Shown: positions 14,246 through 34,224 of the stretch, piece by piece
How positions within the stretch are numbered: position 1 is the first letter of the stretch
How the letters are laid out: the number at the start of each line of letters is the position of its first letter
NCBI GenBank assembly: GCA_028691985.1
Contig: JAQUYG010000010.1
Location: 1-35,388 of the forward strand
DNA: 35,388 bases
Origin: Minisyncoccota bacterium
GTDB taxonomy: Bacteria; Patescibacteriota; Minisyncoccia; JAHIHE01; JAGLIN01
Direction of reading: 5' to 3'
Program-made: the position numbers and the translations under genes
Notes under the pieces: generated by a model
Seen by the model: only the letters and a program-made list of their open reading frames with translations
What the model was told of the DNA's origin: nothing
Database searches by the model: none

Positions 14246-14818
14246 TCAGGACCGTTTGTTTTCATTTTTGGCAAGCTTGATTATTTTCGGTATCTTCTTA
14301 AAATCCACTTCTAAGGTTTGTAGCAGACGGCGCTGATAGATAGTTGCTGCCGGATGATAGATGGGGAAGTATGTTTGTCCGTCTCTAAGCTTAGGTTTTC
14401 CGTGATCCTCAGAGATTTTGAGTCCGGGCAAAAACCTATCCATTGCGTGCCGACCCAAAAGTACGATTATTTGCGGTTTTATGATTGCAACCTGTCTTGC
14501 GAGAAAATCTCGACAAGCAGCAACCTCTTCCGGTAGGGGATCGCGATTAAGCGGTGGACGACACTTAACCACATTAGTTATAAAAACATCCTCTCGCTTG
14601 AGATTGATACTTTCCAAAAGTCCATCTAAAACCTTTCCAGCAGCACCGATAAATGGTCTACCCTGCAAGTCCTCATTTTTACCCGGACCTTCGCCGATAA
14701 AAACGATTTCCGCCCTACTATTTCCACAACCGGGCACGGTATTCGTTCTGGTCTCGCACAGCGGACACTTTTGACAGTTCTTTACCTCTTCATTTATTTT
14801 TACCAGGCTATCCTTCAT
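14246..14818 (-). CDS. Family 4 uracil-DNA glycosylase (Fe-S)
   Basis: The 190-aa protein matches family 4 (UdgA-type) uracil-DNA glycosylases, which remove uracil from DNA to start base excision repair. Four cysteines suited to bind a 4Fe-4S cluster are present: C15 and C18 (NCQKCPLC), C86 (VVKCRPP) and C102 (ACRDFL). The catalytic motif is GEGPG at 42-46 with E43, and the second motif is HPAA at 155-158. Length is typical. Its start overlaps the beta-helix gene stop by 4 bp (ATGA), so the two are translationally coupled. Nearby nfo would act on the abasic sites it makes. Confidence 0.92.
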   Translation of the reverse strand: MKDSLVKINEEVKNCQKCPLCETRTNTVPGCGNSRAEIVFIGEGPGKNEDLQGRPFIGAAGKVLDGLLESINLKREDVFITNVVKCRPPLNRDPLPEEVAACRDFLARQVAIIKPQIIVLLGRHAMDRFLPGLKISEDHGKPKLRDGQTYFPIYHPAATIYQRRLLQTLEVDFKKIPKIIKLAKNENKRS

Positions 14819-16020
14819 ATTCTTGACCCCAATTTTTTACCATCCGATCCCGACTCGAGGAAAGGGGAGTCTTCGCTTAAACTGAAATCATATTCTGCGG
14901 CATTTATAAACGCCGAATCCCCGGAAAAATTATTACCCAACATCTTGCACTCTCCGAAACACAAGAAATTATTTTTATTGTTCCAAAGATTATTATAATC
15001 GATGACTACACCTGAGCTTTTCTCATCTGCATAGATTCCGCTGCAAAGTTCACAAGTTCCATTATCAGTTATTATATTATTTTTTATTTCTGCACTACCG
15101 CTTGTCAGATAAACACCGAAAGTCGCGCCTGCATAGCTACCATAAGAATCGTTGTAGCTTATAGTGTTGTGTTCGATTTTTACATTTGCCTTATAGGCAT
15201 TTATGCCTTTCTTGTTCTGGAATATAAAGTTGTCGATAATGACGGGAAGGGAATTGTTTGGCTTCTCTAGATTAAAAATCTGCACTCCGGCTTTACTCGA
15301 ACTCAGACGGTTGCGCTGGATTGTCGGGGAAGACTCTCCTTTTATATAGATATCATAATCATTATCCAGTATGATATTCCGGTTGATGATAGGGGAGGAG
15401 TCTTCAATCATCACACCGCTCAGATTTTCTTCTGAGTTCTTGATTGTGAATCCTTCCAGGCGAGTATCGACATCGACAATATTTTTGAAAGCCACCACAT
15501 TACCGACCTTTTCTCCGTCCAAAATAGTATTTTCCGCACCCGCCCCGATCAAGCTCACACCATCCTTCATAGTAATATTTCCCTTATATTCACCTGCAGA
15601 AACAAACACCGCATCTCCCGACACTGCTGCATCTATCGCCTCCTGGATAGAAACAAAATCTTCTGGAATATTAAATATTCTCTGTTTATCTTGCACAGAA
15701 ACTTTATCCATTATCTCCCCGAGAGGAACAACCTCGCTCAAAAGAAAATAAGATCTCTCAAAAATGTTCTGATCATCCGACTGTTCTTCCTCGACCACAT
15801 CTGTTTCTACGGACGGACTTTCTCCGCTATAGCTAACTGCGGAGACACCTTCCTCCATAGATTCTTTATTGACAAAAGAGATAGAGAGGATCACTGCAAC
15901 GACGATAAACCCGATTGCCGCAACCAAAAAACTCCGCCGCCTGTCTGAAAAACATAACTTTTTAAATTCTGCATAAAGTTTTTCCAGATCTATCCTTTTT
16001 AATAAATCATTCTTTATCAT
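14815..16020 (-). CDS. Membrane-anchored right-handed beta-helix protein
   Basis: The 401-aa product has a cytosolic basic N-terminus, one TM segment (about 31-50) and an acidic linker. A parallel beta-helix of the NosD/CASH type follows from about residue 110, opening with IPEDFVSIQEAIDAAVSGDAV and continuing with repeated turns such as SLIGAG, NTILDG, LEGFTIKNS, SPIINRNII, SPTIQRNRL, KIEHNTISYN and AEIKNNIITDN. Such folds bind or cut polysaccharides or serve as adhesins; no catalytic residues can be assigned. The linkage to a DNA repair gene by ATGA overlap is probably only operonic. Two Cys pairs near the end (CELC, CFGEC) may form disulfides. Confidence 0.8.
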   Translation of the reverse strand: MIKNDLLKRIDLEKLYAEFKKLCFSDRRRSFLVAAIGFIVVAVILSISFVNKESMEEGVSAVSYSGESPSVETDVVEEEQSDDQNIFERSYFLLSEVVPLGEIMDKVSVQDKQRIFNIPEDFVSIQEAIDAAVSGDAVFVSAGEYKGNITMKDGVSLIGAGAENTILDGEKVGNVVAFKNIVDVDTRLEGFTIKNSEENLSGVMIEDSSPIINRNIILDNDYDIYIKGESSPTIQRNRLSSSKAGVQIFNLEKPNNSLPVIIDNFIFQNKKGINAYKANVKIEHNTISYNDSYGSYAGATFGVYLTSGSAEIKNNIITDNGTCELCSGIYADEKSSGVVIDYNNLWNNKNNFLCFGECKMLGNNFSGDSAFINAAEYDFSLSEDSPFLESGSDGKKLGSRI

Positions 16021-16096
16021 CTAAAAACATCTTAATTCATAAAACAACTACTTGCATTTTAACATGAAATTGAAAAAACTAGAAAACTACATGGCT

Positions 16097-16328
16097 CTAC
16101 TTTTTTAAATTATCGATTTTTCCCCTCACCACCTTCAACCCGTATTCTTTCTTCCCTCTGCGCTTCTTCTTATTACCACTACCTTTTTTATCAATTTAAT
16201 GCAATGAACAGCTCACCCTTTTTGTTTTTATCAGCTGACATCTAAAAGATATGGTTCTGTCCTTCGGATTCTGTGCAAAGTACGGCAAGATTTTCCAATG
16301 GCGCTCCCATTTTCTTCAAAATATCCAT
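16097..16328 (-). pseudogene. Possible decayed small ORF(s)
   Basis: This 320-bp gap (16021-16340) has no intact gene. On the minus strand ATG 16328 opens MDILKKMGAPLENLAVLC..HIF, then an in-frame TAG, then MSADKNKKGELFIALN, then TGA. Skipping one base there leads to DKKGSGNKKKRRGKKEYGLK and on to a TAG at 16097-16099. The pieces look protein-like but need readthrough and a frame change to join, so they may be remnants or chance. The left part of the gap is only T/C-rich DNA. Confidence 0.25.
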
Positions 16329-16340
16329 GCCCACAAAATA

Positions 16341-16802
16341 CTAGATATTCTTTATCACACCCTTCAATATCCCCAAATCTTTCCTCACGCCTAGGGGAGG
16401 AGTCTCTAATACAAAATCAAGGTCATATTTTTCGAGTTCCCTCAAAATGGCGGTTATGCCCTCAATGCCGATTTTGCCTTTCCCGATATTGGCGTGACGG
16501 TCTACATGCGAATCAAGCATCGCTGCCGAATCATTGAGATGAACTAATTTTATTCTATCAATTCCGACGATTTCATCAAACTTTTCAAAAGTCTCGTGAA
16601 CAACCTCGGTGCTGCTCAAGTCATACCCGGAAGCGAAAGCGTGCGCCGTATCAAAGCATACTCCCAAAATATCCGTGCCCACAATTTTCTCTGTTTCCTT
16701 AATAAAAGATGCAATCTCCTCAAAGGTGTCTCCCATGATTTCTCCCGACCCTGCTGCATTAAAGCCAAAATGAAAGTACCAAACAATAAGTAATACAAGC
16801 AA
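16341..16802 (-). pseudogene. 5'-truncated nfo (endonuclease IV) paralogue
   Basis: From AAGSGEIMGD onward this 153-codon frame matches the C-terminal half of the intact nfo at 18810-19682. It keeps D190, H193, H227, D240, H242 and E272 equivalents but lacks the segment with H66, H106 and E153, so it cannot form the three-metal site. It begins with an unrelated hydrophobic stretch MLVLLIVWYFHFGF. Bases 16396-16754 are identical to 18859-19217 except one (Ala for Val in GITAILREL). Outside that patch the two genes are diverged but alignable: ETPPLGVRKDLGILKGVIKNI here, ETPPGRIGEDLQILKGYHH there. It is likely a remnant paralogue partly overwritten by gene conversion. Confidence 0.8.
16396..16754 (-). 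repeat. 359-bp direct repeat, copy A (partner 18859-19217)
   Basis: Copy A of a 359-bp segment that is 358/359 identical to 18859-19217, in the same orientation and 2463 bp away. The single difference is at 16450 versus 18913. The pair brackets the 654-aa orphan gene. Recombination between the copies would delete it together with the nfo 3' end. Confidence 0.9.
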
Positions 16803-16835
16803 AAATATGTTTCTTTTTATTTTAATAGTTTTCTG

Positions 16836-18800
16836 TCATTTTGTTGTTTTGCTCAATATATTTTTTACTCTTTCCATAATATTAACAGACCTAACCCGCG
16901 TCAATACTGAGTTATGAGCTTCTTCAACTACGGCACTTTCCTCCTGCCCCACAGAAATATTTTCTACAGAACCAAAATCTATAGAGGAAGTTATCAATTT
17001 ACCTTCTTTTGTTGGAGCTACCAATTGACTCACTATACGACCATCCTCAGTACCAGTTTGGGTCACGATAAATTTATTAAAATTATCAACCCCCATTTCT
17101 TCAAGCGCTCCCTTTATACACATAAAAATAGAACTGCGATCCGAATTACTAAATCCCTGTTCCTCACCGAACTCTTTTTCTGTCATACTTGCTACCATCA
17201 TTATGGCCTCTTTTGGACTATCTTTCGCGATACCCTTTAAATTATCAATATCAATTCCATATTTATCTAATACATTCCTGGTTAATTCTTCTCGGAGATT
17301 ACCATCGGGACTATTTTCAAAAGATTCTATAGAATATGGCAGATATTTTACCTCTTTTCCAGACAACAAATTGTTTAATTTTTTTCCATTGTCAGTATCC
17401 GTCCACTTTTCTAAATCTTCCCTCAGTACATTTTCATTGAAATCACCGTTCGCACCTTGCCTCTCTGCAACAATATCAATTATAGCATTAATAGCTTCCG
17501 TATGATTATTTTTCAATTTATCCATATCGTAACCTTTTTCCTGCAATTCGCCTACTACAACTTTGCCGTATATTTCTTCAATTCTTACACCCCTCCCTTC
17601 ATGTGACTCTAGAGATGAGAACGGATTATCTAGCCTTTCTTTGCTAAGGGCACTCCAAATATTATCGTATCCATTTTTCTCTCCCCATGATTCAAATTCT
17701 GCTATAGCCACTTTCTTTTCGTCTGGATTATTCCAATCGTATCTTTCTGTCAACTCATTGCATTTGCTCTGAATTTCTCCCACGGAATGATAGTCCTTAT
17801 CAATATCAAAATCTTCTAGAGAAACGACAGAAACCCTCTCTTCTGGATTATCAGCTGTATAAAATAAATCTTCAAAATATTCTTTTACTCTTTCTTCTGG
17901 GACTCCCATTGTAGAAGATATCTCACTTATAATTCTGTCTCTATTTCTATCGAATTCTTCCATTGTTATTTCAGCTTCGGTAACAATATTAGAAGGATTG
18001 TGTCCTTCTGTCATATCTAATATCATATTACCTATTCTAGAATAATCCTCTTGAACCTCTTTGACATCGCCTTGAACATCATAAGTTCCTATATAGTTCA
18101 GCCCTATCACTCTCTCTCCTTTATTATTTTCCGATATAACAAAGTTTAATGCGAAACCGTCATCATTGGATAATGGCTCTACGGCATAGGCCTGCAAAAC
18201 ATCTACCGGCATGTCTTGATCCAAATTTAAAGCTTCTTTGAAATCAGAATTTTTTGCCAAATCTTCTAAAGAAAATACCTGCCCATCAAAATTAATCTGC
18301 ATATCCTGCGAAAAAAAATCTTCCGCCATTGCCACGGGAAAACTGGAAAAATACAGAAATACGACAATGGCCTTTATAACTAAATGATGATCTCGCGCAA
18401 ATTCTATTATTCTATCGGGGTGCTTTGTGGGACTGACAGAATCCATATTCTCATTGAAGAAATTCATATAAGTTTTTCTGGCATTATCATCAGATTCTAT
18501 TAAATAAGCAATCAGAGAGCCTGTATTTTCAAGCATATAGCCACTTTTACCAGTCTCATCAGGAATTTGAATCTCTTTTCTCTCAATAAATTCTCCTGGA
18601 TTTTTTAGTTGTTCTATAATATTAAGTTCTAATCCCGACATTTCCACAACATTCTCGACAGAAATGCCGGTTTCCCTTGAAACATTCTCGATCCTATTTT
18701 TCATAAAATCCAATAACGGTCTTATCTCCTCCATTCCTTCCATACGCTTTCCTTCTAAACTTTCATTAAGTTTGGCACTTTCAAAAAAATTTTCTTTCAT
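16836..18800 (-). CDS. 654-aa orphan membrane/exported protein of unknown function
   Basis: A large acidic protein I do not recognise. Residues 1-135 are hydrophilic and helical. A hydrophobic stretch with a possible signal-peptidase-like site follows (about 139-159, VIKAIVVFLYFSSFPVAMAED), then about 490 residues of charged, mixed helix/strand sequence. This suggests a cytoplasmic N-terminus and a large exported part. The block DRSSIFMCIKGALEEMG (about 566-582) followed by VSQLVAP and SSIDFGS loosely recalls the Cys region of transglutaminase-like folds, but no matching His is seen, so this is only a weak hint. The gene lies between two nfo copies with direct repeats and ends 33 bp before the truncated one. 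Its AT content looks somewhat higher than that of nfo. No Shine-Dalgarno stands out. Confidence 0.75.
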   Translation of the reverse strand: MKENFFESAKLNESLEGKRMEGMEEIRPLLDFMKNRIENVSRETGISVENVVEMSGLELNIIEQLKNPGEFIERKEIQIPDETGKSGYMLENTGSLIAYLIESDDNARKTYMNFFNENMDSVSPTKHPDRIIEFARDHHLVIKAIVVFLYFSSFPVAMAEDFFSQDMQINFDGQVFSLEDLAKNSDFKEALNLDQDMPVDVLQAYAVEPLSNDDGFALNFVISENNKGERVIGLNYIGTYDVQGDVKEVQEDYSRIGNMILDMTEGHNPSNIVTEAEITMEEFDRNRDRIISEISSTMGVPEERVKEYFEDLFYTADNPEERVSVVSLEDFDIDKDYHSVGEIQSKCNELTERYDWNNPDEKKVAIAEFESWGEKNGYDNIWSALSKERLDNPFSSLESHEGRGVRIEEIYGKVVVGELQEKGYDMDKLKNNHTEAINAIIDIVAERQGANGDFNENVLREDLEKWTDTDNGKKLNNLLSGKEVKYLPYSIESFENSPDGNLREELTRNVLDKYGIDIDNLKGIAKDSPKEAIMMVASMTEKEFGEEQGFSNSDRSSIFMCIKGALEEMGVDNFNKFIVTQTGTEDGRIVSQLVAPTKEGKLITSSIDFGSVENISVGQEESAVVEEAHNSVLTRVRSVNIMERVKNILSKTTK

Positions 18801-18809
18801 ACTTTCAGA

Positions 18810-19682
18810 TTAATGATGATAGCCTTTTAATATTTGCAAATCTTCTCCGATTCTCCCTGGAGGAGTCTCTAATACAAAATCAAGGTCATATTTTTCGAGT
18901 TCCCTCAAAATGACGGTTATGCCCTCAATGCCGATTTTGCCTTTCCCGATATTGGCGTGACGGTCTACATGCGAATCAAGCATCGCTGCCGAATCATTGA
19001 GATGAACTAATTTTATTCTATCAATTCCGACGATTTCATCAAACTTTTCAAAAGTCTCGTGAACAACCTCGGTGCTGCTCAAGTCATACCCGGAAGCGAA
19101 AGCGTGCGCCGTATCAAAGCATACTCCCAAAATATCCGTGCCCACAATTTTCTCTGTTTCCTTAATAAAAGATGCAATCTCCTCAAAGGTGTCTCCCATG
19201 ATTTCTCCCGACCCTGCGGTAATTTCCAGAAGCAGCTTCGTCTGGAATCTCTGATATTTTTTCTTCGCATCTTTTGAAGAAGAGGGGACTTCGAATATCT
19301 TACACAGCCCCTCGACCAATTTCTTCTTGGCTTCTGTTTTCCCCAGGTCTTTCGCACTTCCAAGATGGGTTACTACACCGCTAGCCCCCAACAGATCTGC
19401 AATCTCCAGCTCATCCCTTATGGCAGAAATGGAACCGTAATATATGCGATTATTGTCCGAAGCAAGATTTATATAATAAGGTGTATGGAGATAGCAATTG
19501 CCCAGCTTATATTTTTTACACTCTGCACGGAACTCTTCCGCCACCCCCTTATCAATCTTTTTGAATTTTCCGCCGTGGGGAGAACGAGAGAAAATCTGGA
19601 AGCACTCCGCTCCAAAATCAAAAGCTCGCGCCGGAGCCTTTTCAATGCCACCTTCGATTGATACATGAAGTCCGAACTTCAT
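18810..19682 (-). CDS. nfo: Deoxyribonuclease IV (AP endonuclease, endonuclease IV)
   Basis: The 290-aa TIM-barrel enzyme cuts DNA 5' to abasic sites in base excision repair. By analogy with E. coli Nfo all nine metal ligands can be placed: H66 (LHTPYYINLAS), H106 (THLGSA), E153 (LLLEITAGSGE), D190 and H193 (CFDTAHAFASG), H227 (VHLNDS), D240 and H242 (VDRHANIG) and E272 (VLETPP). The 3' half contains a 359-bp segment shared with the truncated copy at 16341-16802. The last codons (GRIGEDLQILKGYHH) differ from that copy. The orphan gene follows 9 bp downstream. Functionally it fits with the family 4 UDG encoded 4 kb away. Confidence 0.95.
   Translation of the reverse strand: MKFGLHVSIEGGIEKAPARAFDFGAECFQIFSRSPHGGKFKKIDKGVAEEFRAECKKYKLGNCYLHTPYYINLASDNNRIYYGSISAIRDELEIADLLGASGVVTHLGSAKDLGKTEAKKKLVEGLCKIFEVPSSSKDAKKKYQRFQTKLLLEITAGSGEIMGDTFEEIASFIKETEKIVGTDILGVCFDTAHAFASGYDLSSTEVVHETFEKFDEIVGIDRIKLVHLNDSAAMLDSHVDRHANIGKGKIGIEGITVILRELEKYDLDFVLETPPGRIGEDLQILKGYHH
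18859..19217 (-). repeat. 359-bp direct repeat, copy B (inside intact nfo)
   Basis: Copy B of the repeat described at 16396-16754, corresponding to nfo codons of about residues 156-274. Both boundaries fall inside coding sequence, and homology continues at a lower level at least on the 3' side. This pattern suggests a conversion tract rather than a clean insertion. Confidence 0.9.
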
Positions 19683-31430: not shown

Positions 31431-32786
31431 ATGAATAATGAACAGCTTTGGCAAGCAACACTAGGAGAGCTTGAACTTTGTATAAGCAAAGCCAACTTTA
31501 TAACCTGGTTTAAAAACACCAGCATAGCGTCCAAGAAGGAAGACCAGCTGGTAATAAGCGTGCCTAATGGCTTTACCAAAGAATGGCTTAAGAATAAATA
31601 TCATAAAGATATTATAAAGGCGATACAGAATATCTGCCCAGAAATAAAGAACATCGAATATAAGGTGGGGCAAGGAACATCGCAAGGTCAGCCGCAAGAA
31701 GAAGAAAGGCGCGCGGAGATGAAACCGACACCCGAGAGAATATCTTCTACTTCCGACAGGAATAATTTTTTGAACCCGTCATACAATTTCAACAATTTCA
31801 TAGTTGGTCCCAACAATGAGCTCGCCCATGCCGCATGCATAGCTGTGAGTAAAAACCCGGGACAGAAATATAATCCCTTGTTCATTTACGGCGGAGTGGG
31901 ATTAGGGAAGACTCACCTTTTGCAATCCATCGGCAACGAGGCTCTCAAGAAAGACCCTCACAAAAAGATAAAATATGCCTCGTCAGAAAAATTCACCAAT
32001 GAACTTATCGAGGCCATATCAGGTAAAAACACCAAAACTTTCAAAAACATGTACAGGGAGATCGACATACTGATAATTGACGATATCCAATTTTTAGCAG
32101 GCAAAGAAAAAACCCAAGAAGAATTTTTTCATACCTTTAATACGCTCTACGAAAACAACAAGCAAATAGTGCTCTCCAGCGACCGGCCTCCGAAGGCCAT
32201 TCCGGCCCTAGAGGAAAGACTCAGGTCCCGCTTTGAGGGGGGAATGATTGCGGATGTCGGTTTCCCAGATTATGAGATAAGACTTGCTATTTTAAGAACA
32301 AAGGCCAAAGAAAAAAACTTCGACATTCCCGAAGAGTCTTTGAACTATATTGCGCTTCATATCCAAAGGAATATCCGAGAGTTACAAGGAGCCCTTAACC
32401 GGGTGGTCGCGGTATGCGAGCTGGACGGAAGCTATCCTGACATAAAAAAAACCACCGCTATCTTGGCAAATATAATTTCCCAGCCGATTAAAAAAGCCAC
32501 GACTCCTAAAGACATTATGAAAAGTGTTGCCGATTTCTATGGCGTTACCAGCAACGAGCTTACTGATAAGAGTAGGAAAAAGGAGTTTGTAAAACCGAGG
32601 CAAATAGCGATGTTTTTGATGAGGAAAGAATTAAAAAGTTCTTTCCCTTCAATCGGATCCTGGCTAGGAGGAAGAGACCACACTACCGCCATGCATGCCT
32701 TTGACAAAATAACGACCGAGATAGAAAATGACAAGTTGATCGAGCAAGAAATAAACCTGATCGTGGAACAAATCTACAATGACTGA
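31431..32786 (+). CDS. dnaA: Chromosomal replication initiator DnaA
   Basis: The 451-aa protein has all four DnaA domains: domain I (1-80, helicase-loading/self-interaction), a short linker (80-115), AAA+ domain III with Walker A GGVGLGKT (154-161) and Walker B LIIDDIQF (214-221), and DNA-binding domain IV ending in the signature RDHTTAMHA (415-423). Length is near normal. It binds DnaA boxes in the flanking regions and opens the origin. Start ATG has an A-rich leader without Shine-Dalgarno. Confidence 0.97.
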   Translation: MNNEQLWQATLGELELCISKANFITWFKNTSIASKKEDQLVISVPNGFTKEWLKNKYHKDIIKAIQNICPEIKNIEYKVGQGTSQGQPQEEERRAEMKPTPERISSTSDRNNFLNPSYNFNNFIVGPNNELAHAACIAVSKNPGQKYNPLFIYGGVGLGKTHLLQSIGNEALKKDPHKKIKYASSEKFTNELIEAISGKNTKTFKNMYREIDILIIDDIQFLAGKEKTQEEFFHTFNTLYENNKQIVLSSDRPPKAIPALEERLRSRFEGGMIADVGFPDYEIRLAILRTKAKEKNFDIPEESLNYIALHIQRNIRELQGALNRVVAVCELDGSYPDIKKTTAILANIISQPIKKATTPKDIMKSVADFYGVTSNELTDKSRKKEFVKPRQIAMFLMRKELKSSFPSIGSWLGGRDHTTAMHAFDKITTEIENDKLIEQEINLIVEQIYND

Positions 32787-33087
32787 TCAAGTCCCTATAT
32801 GTCCAAAAGCTGTGTATAAGCTATGCAAAAACCCACGATAAATGCTTATAATTTTTGGGAAAAACCTACTGATAAATATCGGATATCGCGAAAAATATTA
32901 AGTCTCAAAAAAAATATCTTTCTTGTCCCAAGAAAGAACCCAACTAAAAGCATAGTCTTTCCACAGTTTAAAAAAGTTATTTCGCTCTAAACAGACAACA
33001 AAGAAGCACTTTTCCACCGTTTTTCGTTCCTTTACTATTACTACTTTATTAATAAACTTATTATTTAAATACAATAACCATTAAAGT
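32787..33087 (+). other. Candidate oriC: dnaA-dnaN intergenic region
   Basis: No gene. A DnaA box fitting TTWTNCACA lies on the minus strand at 32811-32819 (TTATACACA). Near-boxes are CTTTCCACA (32957-32965) and TTTTCCACC (33010-33018), each one mismatch from TTWTNCACA. About 13 bp after the last one, the triplets TTA-CTA-TTA-CTA-CTT (33032-33046) give on the complementary strand a run matching the DnaA-trio rule 3'-[G/A]A[T/A]-5', followed by about 40 bp of almost pure A/T (33047-33085). Box, trio and AT-rich DNA resemble the B. subtilis unwinding element. Also present is a perfect 9-bp palindrome TCTTTCTTG/CAAGAAAGA (32917-32937) and TATAAGC/GCTTATA (32815-32850). Confidence 0.55.
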
Positions 33088-34224
33088 ATGAAGATAACTT
33101 GTACCCAAGAAAACTTAAATAAAGCACTTAGTATAGTTGGTAAGGTAATTAATAAAAACACCACCCTTCCTATATTGAATAATGTTCTTTTGAAGACAGA
33201 TAAAAAAGGACTTAGATTAAGTTCAACTAATTTAGAGCTTGGGGTTAATTATTGGATAGGAGGTAAAATCGAAGAAGAGGGAGAGATCACTATTCCGACC
33301 AAATTGTTTGCTAACTTTGTTGCCAGTATTCCTGATGGAAATGTGGAGATAAAAACCCGGGAAGATATGGTGAATATAAAGTGTAATAGTTATAAGATAA
33401 ATATAAAAGGTATTGATGCCAAGGAATATCCACTGGCTCCCAAAATCGAGAATGACTTTTTGTTCAAAGTGAAAAGCGAAGATTTTAAGGAAGCGGTCGT
33501 ACAGGTTCTGCCTTCAGTTTCCATGAGTGAATCCAGGATGGAGATAACTGGAATCCTTTTAGATTTTTCTGAAATAGAAGACGGCAGGATTGTTTTGGTA
33601 TCGACTGATAGTTATCGCCTGGCGCAAAAGACCATACAGCTTTCTAGAGAAAATATAAACAAAGAAAGTTTGAATGCCTTAGGTAATATAAGATCTGTGA
33701 TTATTCCTAAAAATGCGATGCAGGAACTTTCTAGGGACTTGAGCGAAGAAAGTGAAATGTTGGAAATAGTGATCGCTGAGAATCAGATAGTTTTTAATTT
33801 CGGAAAAGCGGTGATAATCTCTAGGCTGATAGAGGGCAACTATCCTCAATATAAACAAGTGATACCAGAAAAATTTATGTCGCAGGCAGTTATGGATATC
33901 AAGGATATCTCCAATGCTGTAAAAATTTCTGGATTATTTTCCAGCGCTTCAAATAATAGTGTAAAATTTAAAATGGGCTCTGATGGTAAAATAGAAGTTA
34001 GTTCGGAAGCAAATGAACTGGGTAATAATAATTCCAGAATTGTCGCTAAGACTTCTGGTAAAGAACTTGAGGTGGTTTATAATTATAAATATCTGATGGA
34101 TGGGCTTAACAGCGTTCTGGGAAATGAAGTCGTCCTTGATATCAATGATGAGAATTCTCCTTCGATCTTGAAAACAAGCTCGGATGAAACATTTATTTAT
34201 GTTATTATGCCAATCAGAAATTAA
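33088..34224 (+). CDS. dnaN: DNA polymerase III beta subunit (sliding clamp)
   Basis: The 378-aa protein has the three-domain clamp fold. Typical parts are the N-terminal MKITCTQENLNKALSIVGKV and LPILNNVLLKT, the central VSTDSYRLAQ and LIEGNYPQYKQVIP in the third-domain junction, and the C-terminal VIMPIRN, equivalent to the conserved PMRL end. It tethers the polymerase to DNA. It follows dnaA after the candidate origin. No obvious Shine-Dalgarno precedes ATG 33088. Confidence 0.96.
   Translation: MKITCTQENLNKALSIVGKVINKNTTLPILNNVLLKTDKKGLRLSSTNLELGVNYWIGGKIEEEGEITIPTKLFANFVASIPDGNVEIKTREDMVNIKCNSYKINIKGIDAKEYPLAPKIENDFLFKVKSEDFKEAVVQVLPSVSMSESRMEITGILLDFSEIEDGRIVLVSTDSYRLAQKTIQLSRENINKESLNALGNIRSVIIPKNAMQELSRDLSEESEMLEIVIAENQIVFNFGKAVIISRLIEGNYPQYKQVIPEKFMSQAVMDIKDISNAVKISGLFSSASNNSVKFKMGSDGKIEVSSEANELGNNNSRIVAKTSGKELEVVYNYKYLMDGLNSVLGNEVVLDINDENSPSILKTSSDETFIYVIMPIRN

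Follow-up and report, generated by a model that had tools for sequence, protein, structure and literature searches.

Conjugation in E. coli has been reported to leave partial duplications of the target: 56 of 60 clones gave a PCR product diagnostic of such a duplication, the 14 that were sequenced measured 109-950 bp, and the structures were explained by a single crossover of donor DNA that had been trimmed and recircularised (PMC3240628). Insertion with long target duplication has been described as a polymorphism of Helicobacter pylori (Nobusato et al. 2000, as related in PMC1643837 and PMC3154945). At T6SS loci, an incoming module anchored in the conserved upstream part of a gene has been proposed to displace old gene parts (PMC5361080), and the Saccharibacteria have been found to be naturally competent (PMC10633639).

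We analyzed a 35,388-nucleotide stretch of DNA (the window), contig 29 of a 1.1-Mb, 50-contig patescibacterial genome (G000), in which nfo is followed by a 654-aa gene and a partial second copy of nfo. As in the E. coli clones, one homologous and one illegitimate join would account for a partial target duplication, here of 359 bp. That system, however, used a laboratory plasmid with identical homology, whereas the event at nfo would have happened in nature, and the donor tail there is ~50% identical (PMC3240628). As in insertion with long target duplication, so far as the two later papers describe it, a novel gene lies between long direct repeats of the target; in those accounts the insertion often goes with restriction-modification genes, whereas the cargo at nfo is the 654-aa protein. 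T6SS/Rhs effector loci share the conserved upstream homology anchor and a new 3′ module that displaces the old 3′ part downstream, but nfo is a repair gene and the locus has no effector/immunity pair (PMC5361080). The locus is best read as an ordinary though instructive recombination scar, left by gene transfer of a known kind, and as no new system.

A repeated segment of nfo

Read along the minus strand, the locus consists of a DHH phosphoesterase gene, a 176-aa gene, full-length nfo, the 654-aa gene, 81 bp and the nfo fragment (16341-16754), followed by a spacer of ~320 bp, a NosD-like gene and uracil-DNA glycosylase (UDG) (Table 1). Direct comparison recovered the two-copy repeat of the original prediction at the same coordinates: the copies are offset by 2463 bp and identical at 358 of 359 positions, the sole mismatch being 16450 G / 18913 A, and a search of the 1.1-Mb genome found the 359-bp sequence at these two sites only. 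Between the copies lie 2104 bp; new DNA is bracketed by long direct repeats of its target, the arrangement known from insertion with long target duplication. This anatomy can be read directly from the contig.

Table 1. Positions of features at the nfo locus in the window
Feature	Position	Strand	Evidence or remark
Full-length nfo (endonuclease IV), 290 aa, donor-type tail (proposed)	18810..19682	-	TIGR00587, PDB matches, ligands
First copy of the 359-bp repeat (codons 156-275 of nfo)	18859..19217	-	direct comparison
Full-gene tail GRIGEDLQILKGYHH*, proposed donor origin	18810..18858	-	nearer to tails of genomes with a 654-aa homologue
654-aa gene, family-restricted protein family, proposed acquired	16836..18800	-	homologues in relatives, GC3, codon usage
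AT-rich 81 bp after the 654-aa gene, hydrophobic leader-like stretch	16755..16835	-	ends at the proposed illegitimate junction
359-bp repeat copy 2, displaced resident nfo fragment (proposed)	16396..16754	-	direct comparison
Resident nfo tail LGVRKDLGILKGVIKNI* (proposed)	16341..16395	-	tail comparison
Candidate decayed relic of a 654-aa gene homologue of type B	16194..16340	-	p ~0.003 (shuffles) to 0.02 (genomic null)
45-bp element before NosD, promoter-like	16034..16078	-	common to G002 only
NosD-like beta-helix gene, landmark of conserved order beyond nfo	14815..16020	-	conserved gene order

The full-length gene encodes an endonuclease IV, as judged by its score against TIGR00587 (208 bits; cut-off 129.65) and by its PDB matches, which are endonuclease IV as well. 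All nine metal ligands are present (H66, H106, E153, D190, H193, H227, D240, H242 and E272), at positions assigned according to the E. coli enzyme. The fragment begins past E153 and is predicted to be inactive because H66, H106 and E153 are missing; it is thus not expected to work as an AP endonuclease. Its frame stays open through the preceding hydrophobic stretch, which we regard as chance.

Of the two joins at the locus, the 3′ one is in register and the 5′ one shows no homology. The diverged but alignable C-terminal flank noted originally proved to be a genuine nfo tail: PLGVRKDLGILKGV matches the tail of the full gene at 7 of 14 positions, and only 5 of 38,946 14-mers in the window, itself counted, reach its score. 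On the opposite side, where the residues starting FNA had been taken for an nfo variant, ungapped identity falls immediately to 3/10, 3/10 and 2/10, and the sequence is AT-rich and codes for a hydrophobic stretch, so this reading did not hold. A 20-nt echo (19/20) of the repeat interior (16665-16684, 19128-19147) was seen at 16317-16336, just past the stop codon of the fragment.

The nfo-NosD interval in related genomes

We compared the locus with 13 genomes of the same family (G001-G013), all from other genera; the relatives carry the labels Patescibacteria, Paceibacterota or Moraniibacteriota. The family keeps the order IF2, DHH, nfo, a variable interval, NosD, UDG. In five genomes nfo is followed by a short spacer and NosD (G002, G006, G007, G012, G013), in two by a longer spacer and NosD (G001, G005), and in five by homologues of the 654-aa gene (G003, G004, G008, G010, G011), an ATPase gene being added in two. 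Extra cargo in the G004 interval is an AAA ATPase gene (L055:13108-14451) with a match to PADLOC PDC-S01, and a similar-looking ATPase gene lies in that of G008 (L056). By its neighbouring proteins, G002 is the nearest relative of the window genome; it belongs to a different genus, and its nfo and NosD adjoin without an insert.

Separate phylogenies, proposed originally for the patch and its flanks, were obtained for the nfo 5′ half and the repeated core. Both were sister to G002 (support 98/97 and 100/99), and the repeat copies are thus of resident type. The identities had raised the suspicion of a mosaic nfo whose 5′ half came from a different lineage, and the same trees led us to discard it. 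In a comparison based on 14 residues, the full-gene tail scored higher against genomes that carry a homologue of the 654-aa gene than against those that do not (Mann-Whitney p=0.015), and the fragment tail showed no such preference (p=0.57). Furthermore, the element before NosD aligned to G002 with a score of 40 (shuffle mean 19, 0/2000), compared with 17-23 for eight other relatives; it lies 52 bp past the nfo stop in G002 and 262 bp past the fragment stop in the window. Because of the kinship with G002 and the element shared with G002 only, the tail of the fragment is likely to be the resident 3′ end.

These comparisons bear on gene conversion, one of the two readings offered in the original prediction, in which a long-standing second, truncated nfo copy would recently have been made identical over 359 bp by a conversion tract. 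Such a tract would naturally end where the 5′ homology ends, and the abrupt fall in identity, from 99.7% in the repeat to 50% in the tail, is in its favour. However, nfo occurs exactly once in 12 of the 13 family genomes and was not found in G009, and a second nfo, suggested at the outset as something to look for in relatives, was present in none of the 13, which counts against an old paralogue. Conversion would also require two or more events and would leave unexplained why the fragment's tail lies beside a G002-type NosD element. We therefore consider it unlikely, although it is the strongest of the alternatives.

Distribution and composition of the 654-aa gene

The five homologues of the 654-aa gene sit between nfo and NosD, or straight after nfo at a contig end, and the gene is absent from the sister genome G002. 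Because these homologues share its position, the gene is a family-specific occupant of the nfo-NosD site and not the unknown orphan that it had been taken for. Samples of the wider class and phylum gave no convincing match. A donor was not found, the closest homologue (G003) being 41% identical, and a phage or plasmid origin was dropped when no match to either was found.

The gene contrasts in composition with its neighbour: its GC is 0.353 and its GC3 0.287, the lowest among the genes compared, versus 0.438 and 0.447 for nfo, and its codon usage is the most similar to that of low-GC relatives among 24 genes. Since genes of this family are AT-rich within their own genomes too, we treat composition as supportive of acquisition and no further. 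Among Pfam families only PF04473 was matched (E=0.12); the structure models were poor (pLDDT 52 and 59), and a fold search against the PDB gave no significant match. Type-B homologues (L055:12325-13038, L053:7002-7676) have Cys-His-Asp motifs resembling a transglutaminase-like domain. These motifs occur only in G004, G011 and G010, and have been lost from G003 and from the window protein, in which the Cys and His are gone.

The stretches flanking the fragment were less easily assigned. The 81-bp leader may be where a NosD-like gene of the donor began and corresponds in position to the NosD start in G003 and G011; as an identification this was rejected, since the position fits but the similarity is not significant (96/240 controls equally good). 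The spacer beyond the fragment may hold what is left, in decayed form, of the C-terminal part of a type-B homologue, an assignment that is suggestive only. If it is true, the resident lineage had lost its own copy, and the proposed acquisition restored one of another type (type A, 41% identical to G003).

Such a remnant of the same family after the fragment could also point to a plain tandem duplication of the unit of nfo and the 654-aa gene, the second unit of which then decayed. The remnant, however, is most like the other (type B) branch; moreover, a recent duplication should have left identical tails, and an old one would not have kept 358/359 identity, which makes this explanation very improbable. 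The least probable of those considered is site-specific integration of a mobile element at the 3′ end of nfo. Some elements rebuild the 3′ end of the gene that they enter and produce the same anatomy, namely a restored gene end, cargo and a displaced old end, but the insert has room for one gene, there is no integrase or transposase match and no tRNA nearby, and a core of 359 bp is very long.

Proposed acquisition by recombination at nfo

The original prediction had left gene conversion and recent recombination side by side; in a refined form recombination fits best, since conversion needs an old second nfo. We think it probable that one event joined a donor piece, consisting of an nfo tail and the 654-aa gene, at nfo and displaced the resident 3′ end. 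The resident allele would have been nfo with the tail LGVRKDLGILKGVIKNI, a spacer and NosD, as in G002. The donor piece would have come from another family member and comprised the nfo 3′ end, the 654-aa gene and ~80 bp more. One end of this piece would have been linked in register to the 3′ end of nfo, giving the full gene a donor tail. An illegitimate join of the other end further upstream, at codon 156, would have left 359 bp of nfo in two copies and carried the resident 3′ end beyond the newly arrived gene. The sharp 5′ border, the identity of the cores and the difference between the tails would follow together, because one event duplicates the stretch between its two joins. We infer the direction, the single event, the identity of the donor and the route. 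As to the latter, a donor piece that had been trimmed and recircularised may have integrated by a single crossover, provided that its nfo core was almost identical; alternatively, sister chromosomes may have undergone homology-facilitated illegitimate recombination. Either route would produce the observed anatomy. Each line of evidence for acquisition is modest; taken together, they favour it.

The state of the genome draft raises a further alternative, an assembly or strain-mix artefact in which the 305 bp over which the repeat is exact served to join in a circle or the allele of another strain. The 50 contigs apparently derive from a metagenome assembly, and a collapsed repeat with two ways in and two ways out can be miswired, for example from a chromosomal nfo with the resident tail and a 2463-bp circle. 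Elsewhere this draft does have a real gap: comEC, dprA, ftsZ and hisS, clustered in relatives (L129, L130), are all missing from G000, whose stated completeness is 99.88%. Because FtsZ and HisS are missing from the same stretch, the lack of ComEC and DprA looks like an assembly gap, apparently of ~20 kb, and we did not use competence loss as an argument on the route. The comEC match of the nearest relative (G002:C18:45791-46567) contains two in-frame stops. On the other hand, the junction 16754/16755, from leader to codon 156, must be in the reads whatever the wiring, the single mismatch and the two tails are distinct, and the 654-aa gene is at its family-typical position. We regard an artefact as quite improbable, more so than conversion. 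On the chromosome, the replication origin is probably not far from the locus, since dnaA and dnaN (31431-34224) lie ~12 kb away.

The 359-bp repeats would make the insert excisable, a proposal of the original prediction that is sound in principle. When the flanks were joined in silico, Nfo was intact at 292 aa but carried the other tail, and NosD came next, the arrangement observed in G002. A bolder extension, to which we assign little probability, is that species of this patescibacterial family repeatedly exchange DNA at the nfo-NosD interval, swapping variants of a fast-diverging protein with nfo as the homology anchor, and that through the repeats the insert can be lost reversibly, with a switch of the Nfo tail.

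The locus would also carry a warning that a direct repeat with divergent flanks is not necessarily gene conversion. If the proposed acquisition is true, the window holds a fresh, nearly unmutated scar of gene acquisition between lineages in an uncultured patescibacterium, and a core repair gene can act as a landing site and acquire a foreign 3′ end.
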